Positions 1 to 22,731 of a stretch of DNA of 36,979 nt are shown here, in pieces. The stretch comes from Spartobacteria bacterium (GTDB lineage: Bacteria > Verrucomicrobiota > Verrucomicrobiia > Chthoniobacterales > UBA6821): contig CANIBV010000004.1 in the NCBI GenBank assembly GCA_947466005.1, positions 1 through 36,979 of the forward strand, written 5' to 3'. Under the pieces are notes generated by a model that was given only the letters and a program-made list of their open reading frames with translations, had not been told where the DNA came from and did no database searches. Position 1 is the first letter of the stretch; each line of letters begins with the position of its first letter. The translations under genes and the position numbers were made by a program.

Positions 1-6
1 AGAGCA

Positions 7-819
7 TTGTTCACGCCATCCAAGCAGACTGAGTCTGTTGAAGTCGTTCAGGCCACTGCCGGCTCGGAGGCAATACTTGATGAGGCCTTCTTTGAATTAG
101 GAGCAGGCCACCCGAAGAAAGCACTCCTTGCCTTTCAAAAAATCCAGGAAACCCAGCCATCTCTTACCGGGCTTGATTACCTGATCGCGCGTGCAGCCTT
201 TCAGGCTCGGGAATTCTCGATTGCTGAAGAGGCTCTTCAGCGTTCGTTAAGCCGCAAGGAGATGGATGAGGAAGCCCGTCTTCTGCTTGCCGTGATTCAT
301 TTGTCTCGGAGTAGCGCTGGCGCTGCGCAGGGATCGCAATTCTCCGATCCGCTGACTGACGCGGAGTCCGAGTTCAGGCGTTTTTCCGTGTCCCATCCGG
401 CGGACTCGGCTGTCTATTATCAATGGGCTGAGGCTTTGCGTTCACGTGGGAGTTACCGGACTGCCGCTGAACTGCTGCACAAGGGGCTCCTCCGCTCCGA
501 TCTGATGTCGAGTCAGGCCTTCCTCTTGGCCAAGGAAATCCTTACGCGCCTTCAGAATGAACCCGCCAAAGAAGCGTCCTCGCTCTCCGGAATCACTTCC
601 ATGTCCGGTGAGTTGGCCATCGGTGCTGCACTGGTCGCCCTGCAACACAAGCAGACAACTGAGGCGCTGCTATTTTTCGAAAGGGCACGCGAATTCTATT
701 CTCCATCGGTCTTCCGTGAACTCATCAGCGACAGTGCATTCGACCCGTATCGGACGGATCCGAAAATGAAGTCTTTCTTCACATCGGATCGTGTGGATAA
801 GAGTCTTGGCGCCCCCTAA
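7..819 (+). CDS. Tetratricopeptide-repeat protein, probably 5'-truncated by the window edge
   Basis: ORF open from the window edge with a TTG start; helical TPR-like spacing (LGAGHPKKALLAFQKIQETQPSLTGLDYLIARAAFQ, YYQWAEALRSRGSYRTAAELLHKGL). Confidence 0.6.
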   Translation: MFTPSKQTESVEVVQATAGSEAILDEAFFELGAGHPKKALLAFQKIQETQPSLTGLDYLIARAAFQAREFSIAEEALQRSLSRKEMDEEARLLLAVIHLSRSSAGAAQGSQFSDPLTDAESEFRRFSVSHPADSAVYYQWAEALRSRGSYRTAAELLHKGLLRSDLMSSQAFLLAKEILTRLQNEPAKEASSLSGITSMSGELAIGAALVALQHKQTTEALLFFERAREFYSPSVFRELISDSAFDPYRTDPKMKSFFTSDRVDKSLGAP

Positions 820-960
820 AACGTCGGGATCTCACACGAAAGGGCAAGAGGAGGATGACTTTGTGAAAAAATTCACAAGCCATCAAAAAAGCTCTTGCAA
901 GGAGTGCATTCCTTGACTTGAATTCACATCTCGTTTCTTTAGGACACTGACTTCCGACAC

Positions 961-1791
961 ATGCTTTTCGCCATTTCCCTGATTGCCAGCGCGGAACTTG
1001 CAGCCGAGACGCCCGAGTTCCTCAGCCAGTCTTTTCTGGCATGGTTCACCAACTCCATCCTGGTCACCGCGATCGTGCTCGGCGTGATCGTTTGGATCGT
1101 GCGTTCCTGCACCCGCAAGATCGAGGTGATCCCCGGCTTCGGTCAGAATTTCCTTGAGGCGGTCGTCGAGGGTTTTTACGGAGCTGTTGAGGGAATTCTT
1201 GGCGACAAGATGACCAGGAAGTCTTTCGGCCTTCTTGGAACGCTCTTCATTTTCATCCTGATCTCGAACTGGTTCGGCTTGCTACCGGGCGTCGGTTCAA
1301 TCGGTTGGCATGAGGGAGACAAATTCATTCCTCTCCTCCGTCCGGGAACCGCAGACATGAACATGACCATTGCCATGTCGGTTGTCTCCATGGTGCTCTG
1401 GTTCTACTGGACCATGCAGGTCACGGGGCCGAGTGCTTTCATTAAAGAACTTTTCGGCGTGAAGGGGGGCATGTCTGGCCCGATCCTTTTTCTGCTGGTG
1501 CCTCTCTTTCTCTTTGTTGGCGTGCTGGAGGTTGTTTCCATCTTGGTCCGCCCCGTTTCTCTCTCACTCCGACTCTATGGAAATATCTTTGCCGGTGAGA
1601 ACATGCTCGCGACGATGATCAATATAGGACAAATCTTCCATTTCCCTTCTTGGCTCTCCTCCGTCCTGAGTTGCATTGTCCCCATTCCTTTCTACTTCCT
1701 GGAATTGCTTATCGGATTCCTACAGGCAATGGTTTTCACTCTCCTGATTCTCGTGTACCTCCAACTCTCGACAGCGCACGAGGAACACTAA
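961..1791 (+). CDS. atpB: F1Fo ATP synthase subunit a
   Basis: Subunit a motif VRPVSLSLRLYGNIFAGE; first gene of a canonical atp operon. Confidence 0.95.
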   Translation: MLFAISLIASAELAAETPEFLSQSFLAWFTNSILVTAIVLGVIVWIVRSCTRKIEVIPGFGQNFLEAVVEGFYGAVEGILGDKMTRKSFGLLGTLFIFILISNWFGLLPGVGSIGWHEGDKFIPLLRPGTADMNMTIAMSVVSMVLWFYWTMQVTGPSAFIKELFGVKGGMSGPILFLLVPLFLFVGVLEVVSILVRPVSLSLRLYGNIFAGENMLATMINIGQIFHFPSWLSSVLSCIVPIPFYFLELLIGFLQAMVFTLLILVYLQLSTAHEEH

Positions 1792-1879
1792 GCTGATCGT
1801 TCAAAGACTTTTGGCAGTCGGGACCATGCGAGACGTGGACGGCTACCGGAAACAACACCACCACAAACCAACACATCAC

Positions 1880-2122
1880 ATGCTCATCAACATTCTTGCC
1901 GAAGCCCTTACTTCGGCCAACACGATCACAGGTAGTTTCACCCTCGGCGTTGCCGGAGCAGGATCCGCCATCGGAATCGGCCTGATTGGAGCCCGCATGG
2001 TCGAGGCGATCGGTCGCAATCCCGGAACACTTCCCAAGGTCCTCATGATCGGCATTCTGACGATCGCTTTGGCTGAGGCCATCGCGATCTTCGGTCTGAT
2101 CTTCGCCTTCCAGGGTAAGTAA
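1880..2122 (+). CDS. atpE: F1Fo ATP synthase subunit c
   Basis: 80-aa hairpin proteolipid MLINILAEALTSANTITGSFTLGVAGAGSAIGIGLIGARMVEAIGRNPG...LAEAIAIFGLIFAFQ. The internal ATG at 1880 is preferred over the ORF-track start at 1811. Confidence 0.93.
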   Translation: MLINILAEALTSANTITGSFTLGVAGAGSAIGIGLIGARMVEAIGRNPGTLPKVLMIGILTIALAEAIAIFGLIFAFQGK

Positions 2123-2130
2123 TCCTTCTT

Positions 2131-2169
2131 GGGTGGCGCCCCGTGACCGGGGTGCCGCGCAACCCTTTT
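2131..2169 (+). terminator. Strong intercistronic stem-loop followed by TTTT between atpE and atpF
   Basis: GGCGCCCC (2135-2142) pairs with GGGGTGCC (2149-2156), with one G-T wobble. Flanking GGGT (2131-2134) can pair with ACCC (2162-2165), followed by TTTT at 2166-2169. Confidence 0.6.
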
Positions 2170-2208
2170 AACAAACCAAAAAACACTATCGGGAGAATCT
2201 AACGGAAG

Positions 2209-2706
2209 ATGGAAATTTTAAAACAATTCGGAGTTGATTGGCCGCACTTCATTGCCCAGTTGGTTCTTTTCCTCATCGTTTACTTTGTCCTGAACCGCTT
2301 TGCCTTCGCTCCGTTGCTGAAGGTTCTGGAAGAGCGCCGCAAGCGGATCGAGGAGGGGCAACTCAACGCAGAGAAGATCAAGAAGCAGTTGGCCGAGGCC
2401 GAACTCCGCTATCAGGAGGTTCTTCGCAAGGCCAATGATGATGCCCAGCACATGGTCGAGGAGTCCCGCAAGAACAACGAGGCGTTTTCCCAGCGCGAGA
2501 TGGAAAAGGCCGTCAAGGAATCGGCAGCCATTGTCGATCGTGCCCGTCATGAAATCACCTCCGAGCGCAACCGTATGGTTGACGAGGTGAAGAATGAAAT
2601 GATTTCCCTTGTCATTAAGACCACCGCCAAGGTTGCCGGTAAGGTTCTCTCACCAGAGGATCAGAAACGCCTGAGCGAAGAGGCGGCAAAGAATCTGGTT
2701 GCCTAA
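2209..2706 (+). CDS. atpF: F1Fo ATP synthase subunit b
   Basis: N-terminal TM helix (FIAQLVLFLIVYFVLNRFAFAPLLKVLEERRKRIEEG) then a long charged coiled coil; operon position. Confidence 0.93.
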   Translation: MEILKQFGVDWPHFIAQLVLFLIVYFVLNRFAFAPLLKVLEERRKRIEEGQLNAEKIKKQLAEAELRYQEVLRKANDDAQHMVEESRKNNEAFSQREMEKAVKESAAIVDRARHEITSERNRMVDEVKNEMISLVIKTTAKVAGKVLSPEDQKRLSEEAAKNLVA

Positions 2707-2743
2707 AAAGGCACAGTACCTGATCACTCAAAAAATATCAGTC

Positions 2744-3133
2744 ATGCAGATCCCCAAGGAAGCACGCCGTAAGGCCAAGGAACTCTTTGAGGCGGCTCTT
2801 GATGATTCCGGTCGTCCCGATGCCACCAAGGTACTTTCCATTGCTGACCTTGTGATCAAATCTGCGCCGAGACATGCCGTTCAGATACTTAAGGAGTTCA
2901 CCCGACTGATTCGTCTGGAGACAGGCAAACATCACGCGATCATCGAGAGTTCCGTCCCCATCGATGACGCCACCCGTTCTGCCATCCTGAAGTCACTCCA
3001 GCGACTCGACGGGGGAGAGGTAACCTTGGAGACCAAGGTGGATCCGTCGCTCATCGGCGGGTCACGCATCCGTCTGGGTAGCGAGGTGTGGGATGCCACT
3101 GTGGCCTCCAGACTGATCGCCCTCGCTTCCTGA
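2744..3133 (+). CDS. atpH: F1Fo ATP synthase subunit delta (short form)
   Basis: C-terminal delta signature KVDPSLIGGSRIRLGSEVWDATVASRLIAL; position between atpF and atpA. ATG at 2744 is preferred, giving 129 aa. Confidence 0.85.
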   Translation: MQIPKEARRKAKELFEAALDDSGRPDATKVLSIADLVIKSAPRHAVQILKEFTRLIRLETGKHHAIIESSVPIDDATRSAILKSLQRLDGGEVTLETKVDPSLIGGSRIRLGSEVWDATVASRLIALAS

Positions 3134-3193
3134 TCCATGTCTCTTAACTAATTAACAATCACTCAATCCACTTCCTTTTAACACCCACACACC

Positions 3194-4729
3194 ATGAGCA
3201 ACCTCCTGCAGGAACTTGAATCCAAGATAGACGGCCTTTCCAATTCTTCCGTCACACAATCCAATGTCGGCACGATCCGTGAGATCGGCGACGGAGTTGC
3301 CCGTATCGAAGGACTCGCCGGAGTCATGCTCAACGAGATGCTTGAGTTTCCAGGCGGCGTGTACGGCCTTGCGTTGAACCTTGAAGAGACCGAGGTCGGC
3401 GCGATCATTCTCGGTGACTACACCTCTCTCTCGGAAGGTGATGAAGTCAAGACAACAGGGCGCCTTCTCGAGGTTCCCGTGGGCAAGGAACTTTTGGGCC
3501 GTGTGGTCGACTCTCTCGGACAGCCGATCGACGGCAAGGGGCCCATCCAGTCCAAGACCTTTTACCCTGTTGAAAAAACAGCTTCCGGCATCATCAAGCG
3601 CCAGAGTGTCAGTCAGCCACTCTGCACGGGTATCATGTCAATCGATGCCATGATTCCGATCGGCAGGGGCCAGCGTGAGCTGATCATCGGTGACCGCGCT
3701 ACAGGCAAGACCACCATCGCCATCGACACCATCATCAACCAGGCCAGCATCAACCGTGCAGGTGAAGCTTCCGGGGACACCTCCTTCCGCCCTGTTTACA
3801 GCATCTATGTCGGTATCGGGCAGAAGAATGCGAACATCGCCCGTGTTGTCGACATTCTCTCTTCTAACGACGCTCTCCGGTACACCATCATCATCTCGGC
3901 ACCCGCGTCCGACAGCGCCACGAACCAGTACCTTGCCCCCTTCGCTGGGGCGGCCATGGGCGAGTGGTTCATGGACAACGGCATGGATGCCCTCATTGTC
4001 TTTGACGATCTCTCCAAGCACGCCGTCGCCTACAGGCAGGTTTCCCTGCTTCTCAAGCGCCCATCAGGACGCGAAGCGTATCCTGGCGATGTCTTCTACC
4101 TCCATAGTCGCTTGCTCGAGCGCTCCGCCCGACTTAGCAAGAAAGCCGGTAACGGTTCCCTCACTGCTCTCCCGATCATCGAGACGCAGGCTGGCGACGT
4201 CTCCGCCTACATCCCGACCAATGTCATCTCGATCACTGACGGACAGATCTATTTGGAGACGGATCTCTTCTACCAAGGTATCCGTCCGGCTATTTCCGTC
4301 GGACTTTCGGTTTCCCGCGTCGGTTCCGCCGCACAGATCAAGGCTGTCAAACAGGTTGCCGGAAAGCTCAAGGGCGATCTTGCCCAGTTCCGTGAATTGG
4401 CAGCTTTCGCCCAGTTCGGCAGTGATCTGGATGCCCGTACGAAGACCCAACTCGACCGCGGAGCGCGCATCGTCGAGCTCTTCAAGCAGAATCAGTTCAG
4501 TCCTCAACCCGTCGAACTCCAAGTGGCCATCCTCTGGGCCATGCAGAAGGGTTACTTCGACCCGATTGCAGTCGACCGAGTGAAGGATTTCCAGAATCAG
4601 TTCTCCCAGTTCCTGCTGACACGCAAGGAGCCTGTGCTGGCATCTATCCTCAGGAAGGGTGCTCTCGACGCCGAGATCGAGAAGGAACTCACGGCGGCAA
4701 CCGACGAGTTCAAGGTCATCTTTCGCTAA
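3194..4729 (+). CDS. atpA: F1Fo ATP synthase subunit alpha
   Basis: Walker [32 protein letters not shown]-type region; alpha signature [14 protein letters not shown]. Confidence 0.98.
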
Positions 4730-4759
4730 AAGAACAGACCCCGAGAGACACGAGTCACC

Positions 4760-5635
4760 ATGGCCAACACCCGCGACATCCGCCGGCGCATCAAGTCGGT
4801 CAAGAATACCGCCCAGATCACGAAGGCGATGCAGATGGTCGCCGCCTCCAAGATGCGGAGGGCTCAGCAGGCGGCACTTGCCGGTCATCCCTACTCGCAG
4901 ATTCTCAATAGGGCACTTGTCTCCCTGCGTGACATGGTGAGCGCGGACTCCCATCCGCTGCTGGAGGTTCGACCTGTGAAGAAGGCGCTCGTCCTACTGG
5001 TAACCTCTGACAAGGGGCTTTGCGGAGCGCTCAACACCAACGTGCTCCGAGAGGCTGCCCTGCTCGACAAGGATGCAACGGAGTTCGTAGCTTCGGGAAA
5101 AAAAGGTGCTTCCTTCCTTGCTCGTACTGGCCGAAAAATGATCGCGGATTTCGCGCTAACCGATAATCCCACCTTCCTGCAGACCAAGGCGATCTCTAAG
5201 TTCTGCCTCGAAAAATTTCTTTCCGGTGAAGTCGATCGCGTCGATGTGCTCTACCCGAAATTCGTCAACACGCTGGTCCAGAAACCCACCCAGATAACAT
5301 TGCTCCCGATCACCGATGAGAAAGCGGCCGGTGTCTCCTCAAGTGGCGGCGATAAAGTCGCAACCGAAACCATGGGAGCGCAGTTCCTCTTCGAGCCGGA
5401 TGCCGACGAAGTGCTTGATTCCGTTCTGCCCTATTACTTCCATTTCGAAGTTTTCCAGATGATCCTCGATGCACGCGCCTCCGAGCAGAGTGCCCGGATG
5501 GTCGCGATGAAGAGCGCCACCGACAACGCAAAGGGTCTCGTTAAGGATCTCACCCTCGAATACAACAAGGCCCGCCAGGCCAGCATCACCACCGAACTCC
5601 TTGAAATTACCACGGCCCAAATGGCCCTAGCTTAA
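4760..5635 (+). CDS. atpG: F1Fo ATP synthase subunit gamma
   Basis: N-terminus RDIRRRIKSVKNTAQITKAMQMVAASKMRRAQ; C-terminal ARASEQSARMVAMKSATDNA...LTLEYNKARQASITTELLEI. Confidence 0.97.
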   Translation: MANTRDIRRRIKSVKNTAQITKAMQMVAASKMRRAQQAALAGHPYSQILNRALVSLRDMVSADSHPLLEVRPVKKALVLLVTSDKGLCGALNTNVLREAALLDKDATEFVASGKKGASFLARTGRKMIADFALTDNPTFLQTKAISKFCLEKFLSGEVDRVDVLYPKFVNTLVQKPTQITLLPITDEKAAGVSSSGGDKVATETMGAQFLFEPDADEVLDSVLPYYFHFEVFQMILDARASEQSARMVAMKSATDNAKGLVKDLTLEYNKARQASITTELLEITTAQMALA

Positions 5636-7144
<1,509 letters not shown>

Positions 7145-7555
7145 ATGAGCTCACTTCAACTCGAGATCGTCACTCCGGAAGCGCGCGTTTTCACAGGAAG
7201 CGTACGGATGGTGATTGTTCCCGGGTCGGAGGGTGGACTCGGTATTCTGCCGGACCACATGCCTCTGATGACGGAAATTCTACCCGGTGAGGTGATCGTC
7301 ACCACGGACGATGGAGAACTCTCCCTCGCCGTGGGTGGGGGATTTCTTGAGGTGCTTCCCGACCGCGTTTCCATTCTGACGGATATGGCAATCGTGGAAG
7401 CCGACATCGACGAGAAGGCGGCCGAGGAGGCCGTTGCCCGCGCAGAGAAGGAGATGAGCGAAAAATCTCTCTCTGGTGAGGAGCACGCTTTTGTCCAGGC
7501 TGCCCTGCTTCGCTCGCTTGCCCAACTGCACGTCAAGCGCCGTCGTCACCGTTAG
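7145..7555 (+). CDS. atpC: F1Fo ATP synthase subunit epsilon
   Basis: LQLEIVTPEARVFTGSVRMVIVPGSEGGLGILPDHMPLMTEI; starts directly after the atpD stop. Confidence 0.95.
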   Translation: MSSLQLEIVTPEARVFTGSVRMVIVPGSEGGLGILPDHMPLMTEILPGEVIVTTDDGELSLAVGGGFLEVLPDRVSILTDMAIVEADIDEKAAEEAVARAEKEMSEKSLSGEEHAFVQAALLRSLAQLHVKRRRHR

Positions 7556-7592
7556 TTTCGGAGGGTTTACGTAGGAAGTTGGCCGTCCCCGA

Positions 7593-8234
7593 ATGAGCAT
7601 GGAGGCAACGAAGTCGCCACGTGATCTTCTGGAGATTGCTCTTGAATCGGGACGTCTCCACATTGGCGAAGTCGCATTGGGGCGTGATTTCACACTCCGT
7701 CATGTTGCCGATGTCGGTCGGGATGATCTGATCCGGCACTTCGATCCTGTTGCTGCCCGGGAGATCGCGCGATATGACGCCGAGGGGAAATTCCGCCCGT
7801 TGAAGACAGCTCCTAATCTGAAGAGGGGTTGGTTGCTCGATGTCGGCTCCATTGAGGGAATGGAGCTCGCTTTGGAATTTCTCTATCCCTCCGCGCTCGG
7901 ACTCTGGCTCTCCTGGATCAAGGGCACCCTGCATCCAACCTCGATGAGGGAGACGCTCAACAGGCAGAGCGGCATGTACCGGATCACCCAGTTACTCACG
8001 GTCGGGCAGGCAGGTGAGTTGGTTGGTCGTTGCTGCACCTCCGAGGGGGGATGTCTGCGCACGCTTCTCTGGGATTTGGAACCGGGAGTTCCCGTTCCCT
8101 CGCTTCCATCGGAGAAGCTTTCACTGGATGCCCTTCCCTCGGACCGCATCCCGCTGATCTGCCGCGAGCTCTGCAATCTGGTGGTGGCGGCCGCGAGGCC
8201 CATTGCAAGGGGGAACCTCCCGAAAAAAGAATAG
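7593..8234 (+). CDS. Putative Fe-S cluster protein resembling the DR2241 / CbiX-associated domain
   Basis: GMYRITQLLTVGQAGELVGRCCTSEGGCLRTLLWDLEPG plus a later ICRELC motif give a Cys-rich C-terminal half. Family assignment is from memory. Confidence 0.45.
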   Translation: MSMEATKSPRDLLEIALESGRLHIGEVALGRDFTLRHVADVGRDDLIRHFDPVAAREIARYDAEGKFRPLKTAPNLKRGWLLDVGSIEGMELALEFLYPSALGLWLSWIKGTLHPTSMRETLNRQSGMYRITQLLTVGQAGELVGRCCTSEGGCLRTLLWDLEPGVPVPSLPSEKLSLDALPSDRIPLICRELCNLVVAAARPIARGNLPKKE

Positions 8235-22368: not shown

Positions 22369-22452
22369 AATGGGTGTTGACAGTATGCGATGGTTTTTTT
22401 CTTCTATCTCTTGTCACAAGACACCAACACACCCAACCCAACACAACAATCC

Positions 22453-22731
22453 ATGAGCAGCAAACTCCATCTCGTTGAATCCGTCCAGAAGGCCCTCGGC
22501 AAAGACGTCTCCAAGGCCCACTCCGAAAAAGTCGTGGCAGCAGTCATCGACAGCATCAAGAGCCTCGTTAAGAAGCATAAGAGCCTCCAGTTGATCGGAT
22601 TTGGCACCTTCAAGGTCGTCAACCGCAAGGCCCGCAAGGGAATCAACCCCAAGACCGGAAAGGCCATCCAGATCAAGGCTTCCAAGAGCGTTCGCCTGAC
22701 ACCAGGCAAGGCTTTCAAGCAGTCTCTCTAA
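22453..22731 (+). CDS. HU-family DNA-binding protein
   Basis: LIGFGTFKVVNRKARKGINPKTGKAIQIKASKSVRLTPGKAFKQSL; ATG at 22453. Confidence 0.95.
   Translation: MSSKLHLVESVQKALGKDVSKAHSEKVVAAVIDSIKSLVKKHKSLQLIGFGTFKVVNRKARKGINPKTGKAIQIKASKSVRLTPGKAFKQSL

Follow-up and report, generated by a model that had tools for sequence, protein, structure and literature searches.

The start codon of atpA, the gene for the F1 ATP synthase alpha subunit in a Spartobacteria genome, is preceded by 54 nucleotides that contain no G, and this tract is confirmed as a real, start-codon-linked feature that exceeds chance expectation. We read it as a translation-initiation leader without a Shine-Dalgarno (SD) sequence, in which the start would be found through accessibility and local context, and we give this reading a probability of roughly 0.7. 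The atpA leader is not singular; it is the extreme of a genome-wide, strand-specific trend. The window, meaning the whole stretch of 36,979 nucleotides that was analysed, is contig C4 of an assembly (G000) of 1.55 Mb that is 77% complete, and genome-wide counts were made on 977 kb.

The G-free tract before atpA

The tract (TCTCTTAACTAATTAACAATCACTCAATCCACTTCCTTTTAACACCCACACACC) is composed of 20 C, 18 A and 16 T and lies within the 60-nt spacer between the atpH stop and the atpA start; with the AT of the atpA ATG, the run without G extends over 56 nt (3140-3195). By itself the leader has a predicted minimum free energy (MFE) of 0.0 with no internal pairing. In the window, where G makes up 28.5% of the bases at 57% GC, the second-longest G-free run is 35 nt, and in 240 simulated windows (60 simulations for each of four Markov orders) the longest G-free run was 49 nt, with a mean of ~28-30. 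Across 977 kb of the genome and both strands, four G-free runs of at least 48 nt occur and none in four order-3 Markov replicates, while runs of at least 40 nt number 23, against 1-3 in the replicates. All four of the longest runs terminate exactly at the ATG of a called gene, namely atpA and three genes that we take, from reading their translations, to be phosphoglycerate-mutase-like, hisA-like and a putative secreted protein. Because the longest runs all end at an ATG and Markov sequence gives none, the atpA tract is both real and linked to its start.

The first-pass annotation had described a 53-nt G-free leader without an SD, unlikely to arise by chance in a G-rich genome. The absence of G stands and no SD tetramer is present in the leader, although the length is 54 nt, the earlier coordinates having begun one base late. 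That chance is an improbable source is borne out by the Markov replicates; the description of the genome as G-rich was overstated and the estimate of 0.75^53 too naive. The picture of G-free leaders strewn at random and unlinked to expression, which that annotation had set against its own proposal, does not describe this genome, in which the longest runs end at starts and leader G falls, if weakly, with the expression proxies described below.

The operon around the tract is complete and encodes subunits a, c, b, delta, alpha, gamma, beta and epsilon in that order (Table 1). AtpA is 88-92% identical in 15 same-genus genomes, and the closest named atpA records, at 88-90% protein identity, come from Spartobacteria/Chthoniobacterales (Verrucomicrobiota) assemblies; almost every relative compared keeps ATGAG(C/T) at the atpA start. 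The upstream cistron atpH was listed from a TTG at 2699 that overlaps atpF, and PF00213 begins at residue 16 of that version. The ATG at 2744 is the more likely start, since it better fits both the start of the Pfam domain and the usual spacing. Given the operon context and the absence of anything resembling a terminator or promoter, we infer that the leader is transcribed together with atpA. A consensus scan for an internal promoter or terminator in 3000-3300 gave 0, and a search of 2600-3400 for known RNA families gave no Rfam match up to E = 1. No tandem repeat was called in the atpA leader of this genome, and the sole tandem array called in positions 1-8000 of the window lies in the atpE leader. 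The run that ends at the gene of an HU-family DNA-binding protein is a second case of the G-free start pattern in the window.

Table 1. Positions of features in the window and, where a locus handle is given, elsewhere in the genome
Feature	Position	Strand	Remarks
atp operon	961-7555		complete
G-free run up to and including the AT of the ATG (1880) of atpE (subunit c)	1850..1881	+	0 G in last 20 nt before ATG
atpH (delta/OSCP), cistron upstream of atpA	2744..3133	+	PF00213; TGA stop 3131-3133
G-free leader of atpA	3140..3193	+	zero G; fills most of atpH-atpA spacer
Conserved 3' block TTTTAACACCCACACACC	3176..3193	+	adjoins atpA ATG; genus consensus ~TTTMAACACCCACAAACC
atpA, F1 ATP synthase alpha, ATG start	3194..4729	+	PF02874, PF00006, PF00306 (N, centre and C domains of ATP-synt_ab)
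atpD (beta) leader	5612..5665	+	7 G in 54 nt, 2 in last 20; genus means 5.3 and 0.9
G-free run of 34 nt at the start of an HU-family DNA-binding protein gene, closing within its ATG (22453)	22421..22454	+	PF00216, E 9.3e-25
Histone-H1-like ORF	L117:4985-5185 = G000:C3 24985-25185	+	
rpsU locus	L155:4700-4943 (G000:C38)		relatives L250-L253, L255-L266, L271, L272, L274

Start-site composition across the genome

Start calls rest on a simple gene caller and one relative; the 211 ATG starts treated as confident are those at which another species of the genus has an aligned ATG. Upstream of these starts the G fraction is 0.26 at -60 and drops to 0.13 over -10 to -1, C occupies -1 in 63% and G occupies -2 in 8%, and A is enriched at -14 to -10. 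Control DNA keeps its G (0.27 in convergent intergenic regions, 0.29 after stops), and the depletion is confined to the sense strand and to the start side of spacers. In leaders that begin less than 15 nt behind the previous gene, G is lost only in the last ~10 nt, a restriction that points to the footprint of the ribosome.

SD sequences are scarce. SD tetramers are found at 10.9% against 8.6% in shuffled sequence, whereas E. coli, treated identically, gives 73% against 20%. Confident leaders are predicted to pair less strongly with the 16S tail than mock windows do (means of -2.3 and -4.0), and 7.6% of the former but 13.3% of the latter reach -8 kcal/mol or below. A small SD excess remains at -14 to -9, and a few percent of genes probably use an SD. 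The anti-SD itself is intact, with GGATCACCTCCTTTCT (CCUCC retained) at the 3' end of three 16S genes from the same genus; no 16S gene match was found in the G000 contigs. The strongest SD in the genome sample, AAAAAGGAGGTGGATT at -16.9 kcal/mol, precedes a lysine- and alanine-rich, histone-H1-like ORF.

Predicted structure is relaxed at starts, where 40-nt windows fold at -3.5 kcal/mol, compared with approximately -7 upstream and -8.7 downstream. The stretch from -35 to +15 folds no more weakly than its own shuffles, so weak folding at starts is a compositional effect. The first-pass annotation had proposed correlating leader G with expression and with orthologue conservation. Leader G falls only weakly with a crude codon-usage proxy whose reference set is two genes (rho -0.24, partial -0.19), and within the atp operon G in the last 20 nt falls with subunit copy number, as described below. 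Leader G content is correlated between the orthologues of two species at a rho of 0.61, and of 0.58 where leader identity is low. Because orthologues agree even where their leaders are poorly alike, low leader G looks like a gene-specific, selected trait.

Some leaders carry short repeats. Tandem, G-free 7-mers of the form (TTCATNN)n, oriented with the sense strand, lie 8-26 nt before the ATGs of unrelated genes, which we presume from their translations to be mutL-, Lrp- and U32-peptidase-like, and 13 of the 18 intergenic arrays stand within 40 nt of a same-strand start (p ~7e-6). They occur at L149 (start of the gene at 1186-2971, minus strand), L137, L135, L130, L131, L139 and other loci. 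Autocorrelation with a period of 7 or 8 was rejected as a leader-specific feature, after-stop spacers showing it too; among periodic repeats, only the oriented TTCATNN arrays associate with leaders.

Leader conservation and the atp operon

The genus comparison covers 16 species, G000 and 15 further ones, and in all 16 the atpA leader has 0-4 G in 54 nt and no SD, with a mean of 1.9 G where 13.8 are expected. In a second species of the genus (L086) the atpA leader is also wholly G-free, over 58 nt. Low G persists although identity among the genus leaders is 57-76% (14 G in 432 nt over eight leaders); the upstream part drifts, and the block before the ATG is best conserved. Sister-genus atpA leaders likewise have 0-4 G, with a tract of 65 nt in L006, whose leader is identical to that of L100, and some deeper lineages have an SD-like sequence before atpA, such as AAAAAGGAG in L282 and L284. 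In the sister genus, the atpA leaders of L099, L100, L102 and L103 are built of imperfect ~8-mers (for example CTTTCAA/CTCTTCAA/CTTTTAA) and hold little or no G; G-free leaders may in some cases originate by repeat expansion.

Other abundant genes of the genus lack a G-free leader of this length. Leaders of rpsL have 9-15 G over 54 nt, with G absent chiefly from the final 12-20 nt; those of groES have 13-16 G over 54 nt. In the groES leaders (L343; L330-L334, L339-L344) a AAGGAAAAACACACC-like sequence adjoins the ATG, below a G-rich upstream element, and the leader end ACACACC is similar to the conserved atpA block.

ATP synthase contains approximately 10 copies of subunit c, three each of alpha and beta, and one or two of the others. 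Over the 20 nt that precede the start, the genus mean of G is 0.4 for c, 0.0 for alpha and 0.9 for beta, and 1.8-5.6 for delta, epsilon, gamma, a and b. The three multi-copy subunits are thus the three lowest of eight (chance 1/56), a ranking to be taken as a lead, since the last-20-nt measure was picked after the genus data had been viewed. Start-region MFE follows the same order of groups, at -0.4, -2.1 and -1.8 for c, alpha and beta and -3.0 to -6.4 for the others, and correlates with subunit copy number across the eight genes of this one operon, a and epsilon being drawn from one species (Spearman 0.87, p 0.005). G over the full 54 nt shows no correlation with copy number (rho -0.17) because the subunit c leader is G-rich from -54 to -25. 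The atpF leader has an SD-like tetramer in half of the genus.

Tests outside the genus provide the better check. There, paired tests show less G and less folding in alpha and beta leaders than in gamma and delta leaders, and the same is true of alpha relative to b; p is ~1e-10 for alpha being less folded than gamma, delta and b, values that are optimistic with phylogenetically related loci. As judged from leader sequences, the trend of open leaders at multi-copy subunits holds across the phylum.

Initiation without SD pairing, its rivals and known systems

In the mechanism we favour, a leader RNA without G can form no internal G-C or G-U pairs, so that the start region would stay single-stranded and accessible to the 30S subunit. 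Openness and context (C at -1/-2, A at -14 to -10), not SD:anti-SD pairing, would mark the start, and open structure would presumably raise initiation, with S1 perhaps helping to capture the leader and ordinary mRNAs making little use of the anti-SD. Selection would act on most genes of the lineage and most strongly where one cistron of a polycistronic mRNA must out-translate its neighbours; within atp, this would favour c, alpha and beta over delta, gamma, b, a and epsilon. The proposal of the first-pass annotation, that initiation proceeds without an SD on an unstructured leader, finds support at the level of sequence in the scarcity of SDs, the depletion of G in sense-strand leaders, the low G of all 16 species and the open leaders of the multi-copy subunits in the atp operon.

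Several other accounts of the tract can be weighed against this evidence. The leader contains TTAACA and TTTTAA, an 18-nt-spaced pair at about sigma-70 spacing, and its best conserved part in the genus is the TTTMAAC block, as might be expected of an internal promoter or a near-leaderless F1 start that begins a few bases before the ATG. We consider such a promoter improbable, given that the consensus scan found no -35/-10 match in the tract, that the upstream TTAACA hexamer is not kept in relatives, that start-proximal depletion also precedes genes with less than 15 nt, and hence no room for a promoter, behind an upstream gene, and that a T/A signature at -12/-7 is absent genome-wide before starts. 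Slightly less probable still is that the tract loads Rho, as a rut-like ‘C>G bubble’ that would monitor translation between the F0 and F1 parts of the operon: the longest G-free tracts abut start codons rather than stops, G depletion peaks in the last 10-20 nt, and Rho termination at this position would sever F1 expression, even though 20 C and no G in 54 nt would suit Rho loading and the genome encodes a Rho RNA-binding domain. We give no better odds to a tract without function, whether a compositional accident or the product of strand-biased mutation in transcribed spacers. Intergenic composition is looser and this tract was picked for being extreme, but order-3 Markov sequence does not yield such a tract, after-stop spacers are not G-poor, and low G is maintained in every genus species while the leaders themselves diverge.

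A closer rival holds that binding of S1 to the pyrimidine/A-rich tract is an essential capture step, beyond mere openness. A full-length, multi-domain rpsA is present in this genome (G000:C35:729-2237; TIGR00717, 618.5 bits against a cut-off of 577, single domains not being counted) and above the curated cut-off in relatives, and S1-dependent capture has been proposed for SD-less Bacteroidetes (PMC3155529). We lean against an essential step, as the leader is rich in C and not in U; S1 capture and openness lead to the same expectation for the sequence, which cannot separate them. In F. johnsoniae, purified bS1 has little effect at rpsU (PMC9976891), a result that says little about SD-less mRNAs, rpsU being SD-bearing. 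Some role for S1 in atpA initiation is possible.

The gene rpsU, which encodes bS21, is an exception to leaders that avoid SDs. In all 16 genus species its ATG is preceded by GAAAGCAGGTGAATT (or GGAAAGCAGGTGAATT), for which a duplex of -15.3 kcal/mol with the 16S tail, including one mismatch, is predicted. This exceeds the -13 kcal/mol threshold of PMC9976891, a study that used a program other than our RNAduplex. With a 14-nt tail and an SD window, rpsU ranks third of 773 G000 leaders (mean -2.9); with a longer 16S tail it ranks 19th, since matches with GGATC, a segment beyond the anti-SD, then dominate. The leaders of rpsR, an L33-like gene and rpsA pair more weakly (+1.9 to -2.0), and those of rpsL were read by eye; the comparison covers few ribosomal-protein genes, most of their operons lying outside the contigs examined. 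Extended SDs of the GAAAGCAGGTGAATT type also precede rpsU in members of the family, and are absent or take other forms in other families of the order.

In Flavobacterium, the extended SD of rpsU serves autoregulation by ribosomes that lack bS21, and bS21 helps to hide the anti-SD (PMC9976891). The chance that the extended SD works likewise here is perhaps one in three. The bS21 of this genome has no tyrosine, so the Y54 pocket residue is missing, and its match to PDB 7jil (the F. johnsoniae ribosome) spans residues 5-46 only; without that contact, we do not assign this genome to the Bacteroidia mechanism. A broader proposal, which we put forward tentatively and at rather less than even odds, is that this Verrucomicrobiota lineage, independently of Bacteroidota, largely withholds the anti-SD, lets bS21 synthesis report through the rpsU SD and sets atp-type stoichiometry through the openness of G-free, C-capped leaders.

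The contrast within this genus, of ordinary leaders that avoid G, an rpsU with a near-complete anti-SD match and an operon whose leader openness tracks copy number, bears on how starts are found without SD pairing outside Bacteroidota. It makes testable whether anti-SD occlusion by bS21 evolved repeatedly and whether operon stoichiometry can be tuned by openness alone. Gene callers that expect an SD may misplace starts in such genomes.

The closest known systems are the SD-less leaders of Bacteroidota such as Prevotella and Flavobacterium (PMC3155529, PMC6847099), which likewise combine an intact anti-SD, few SDs, relaxed structure and local context. Their context consists of A at -3 and AT enrichment near -13, whereas the present genome, from another phylum and at 57% GC, avoids G and favours C at -1/-2 and A at -14 to -10. 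According to the accessible part of PMC10783764, a class of SD-scarce genomes with conserved CCUCC includes Akkermansia and Verrucomicrobia bacterium IMCC26134, and on that description the genome studied here fits the class in its SD scarcity and in the CCUCC kept by its relatives' 16S. The literature searched, part of it accessible only in extract, contains no account for Verrucomicrobiota of G-free tracts, of a C(-1) context, of graded atp leaders or of the rpsU exception, and it makes no mention of rpsU extended-SD autoregulation in that phylum. With bS21 autoregulation in Bacteroidia and Chlorobia (PMC9976891), the genus shares, in an SD-scarce genome, a very strong SD on rpsU that none of the few other ribosomal-protein genes compared possesses; it differs from Bacteroidia in phylum and in a bS21 without the Y54 contact, which Chlorobia likewise lack, and anti-SD occlusion here is putative. 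The TAACTGA heptamers of Beggiatoaceae (PMC4679880) are, like the (TTCATNN)n arrays, 7-base direct repeats just upstream of SD-less starts and oriented toward them, but the unit differs and the arrays stand in leaders other than that of G000 atpA. Finally, non-SD genes with weak structure at the start codon are known from many phyla (PMC5397173) and follow the same general principle, which here is the default mode of the genome and is achieved by the near-absence of G. The G-avoiding, C-capped leaders of this Verrucomicrobiota lineage, with their atp grading and rpsU exception, appear to be a new form of a principle known from Bacteroidota.
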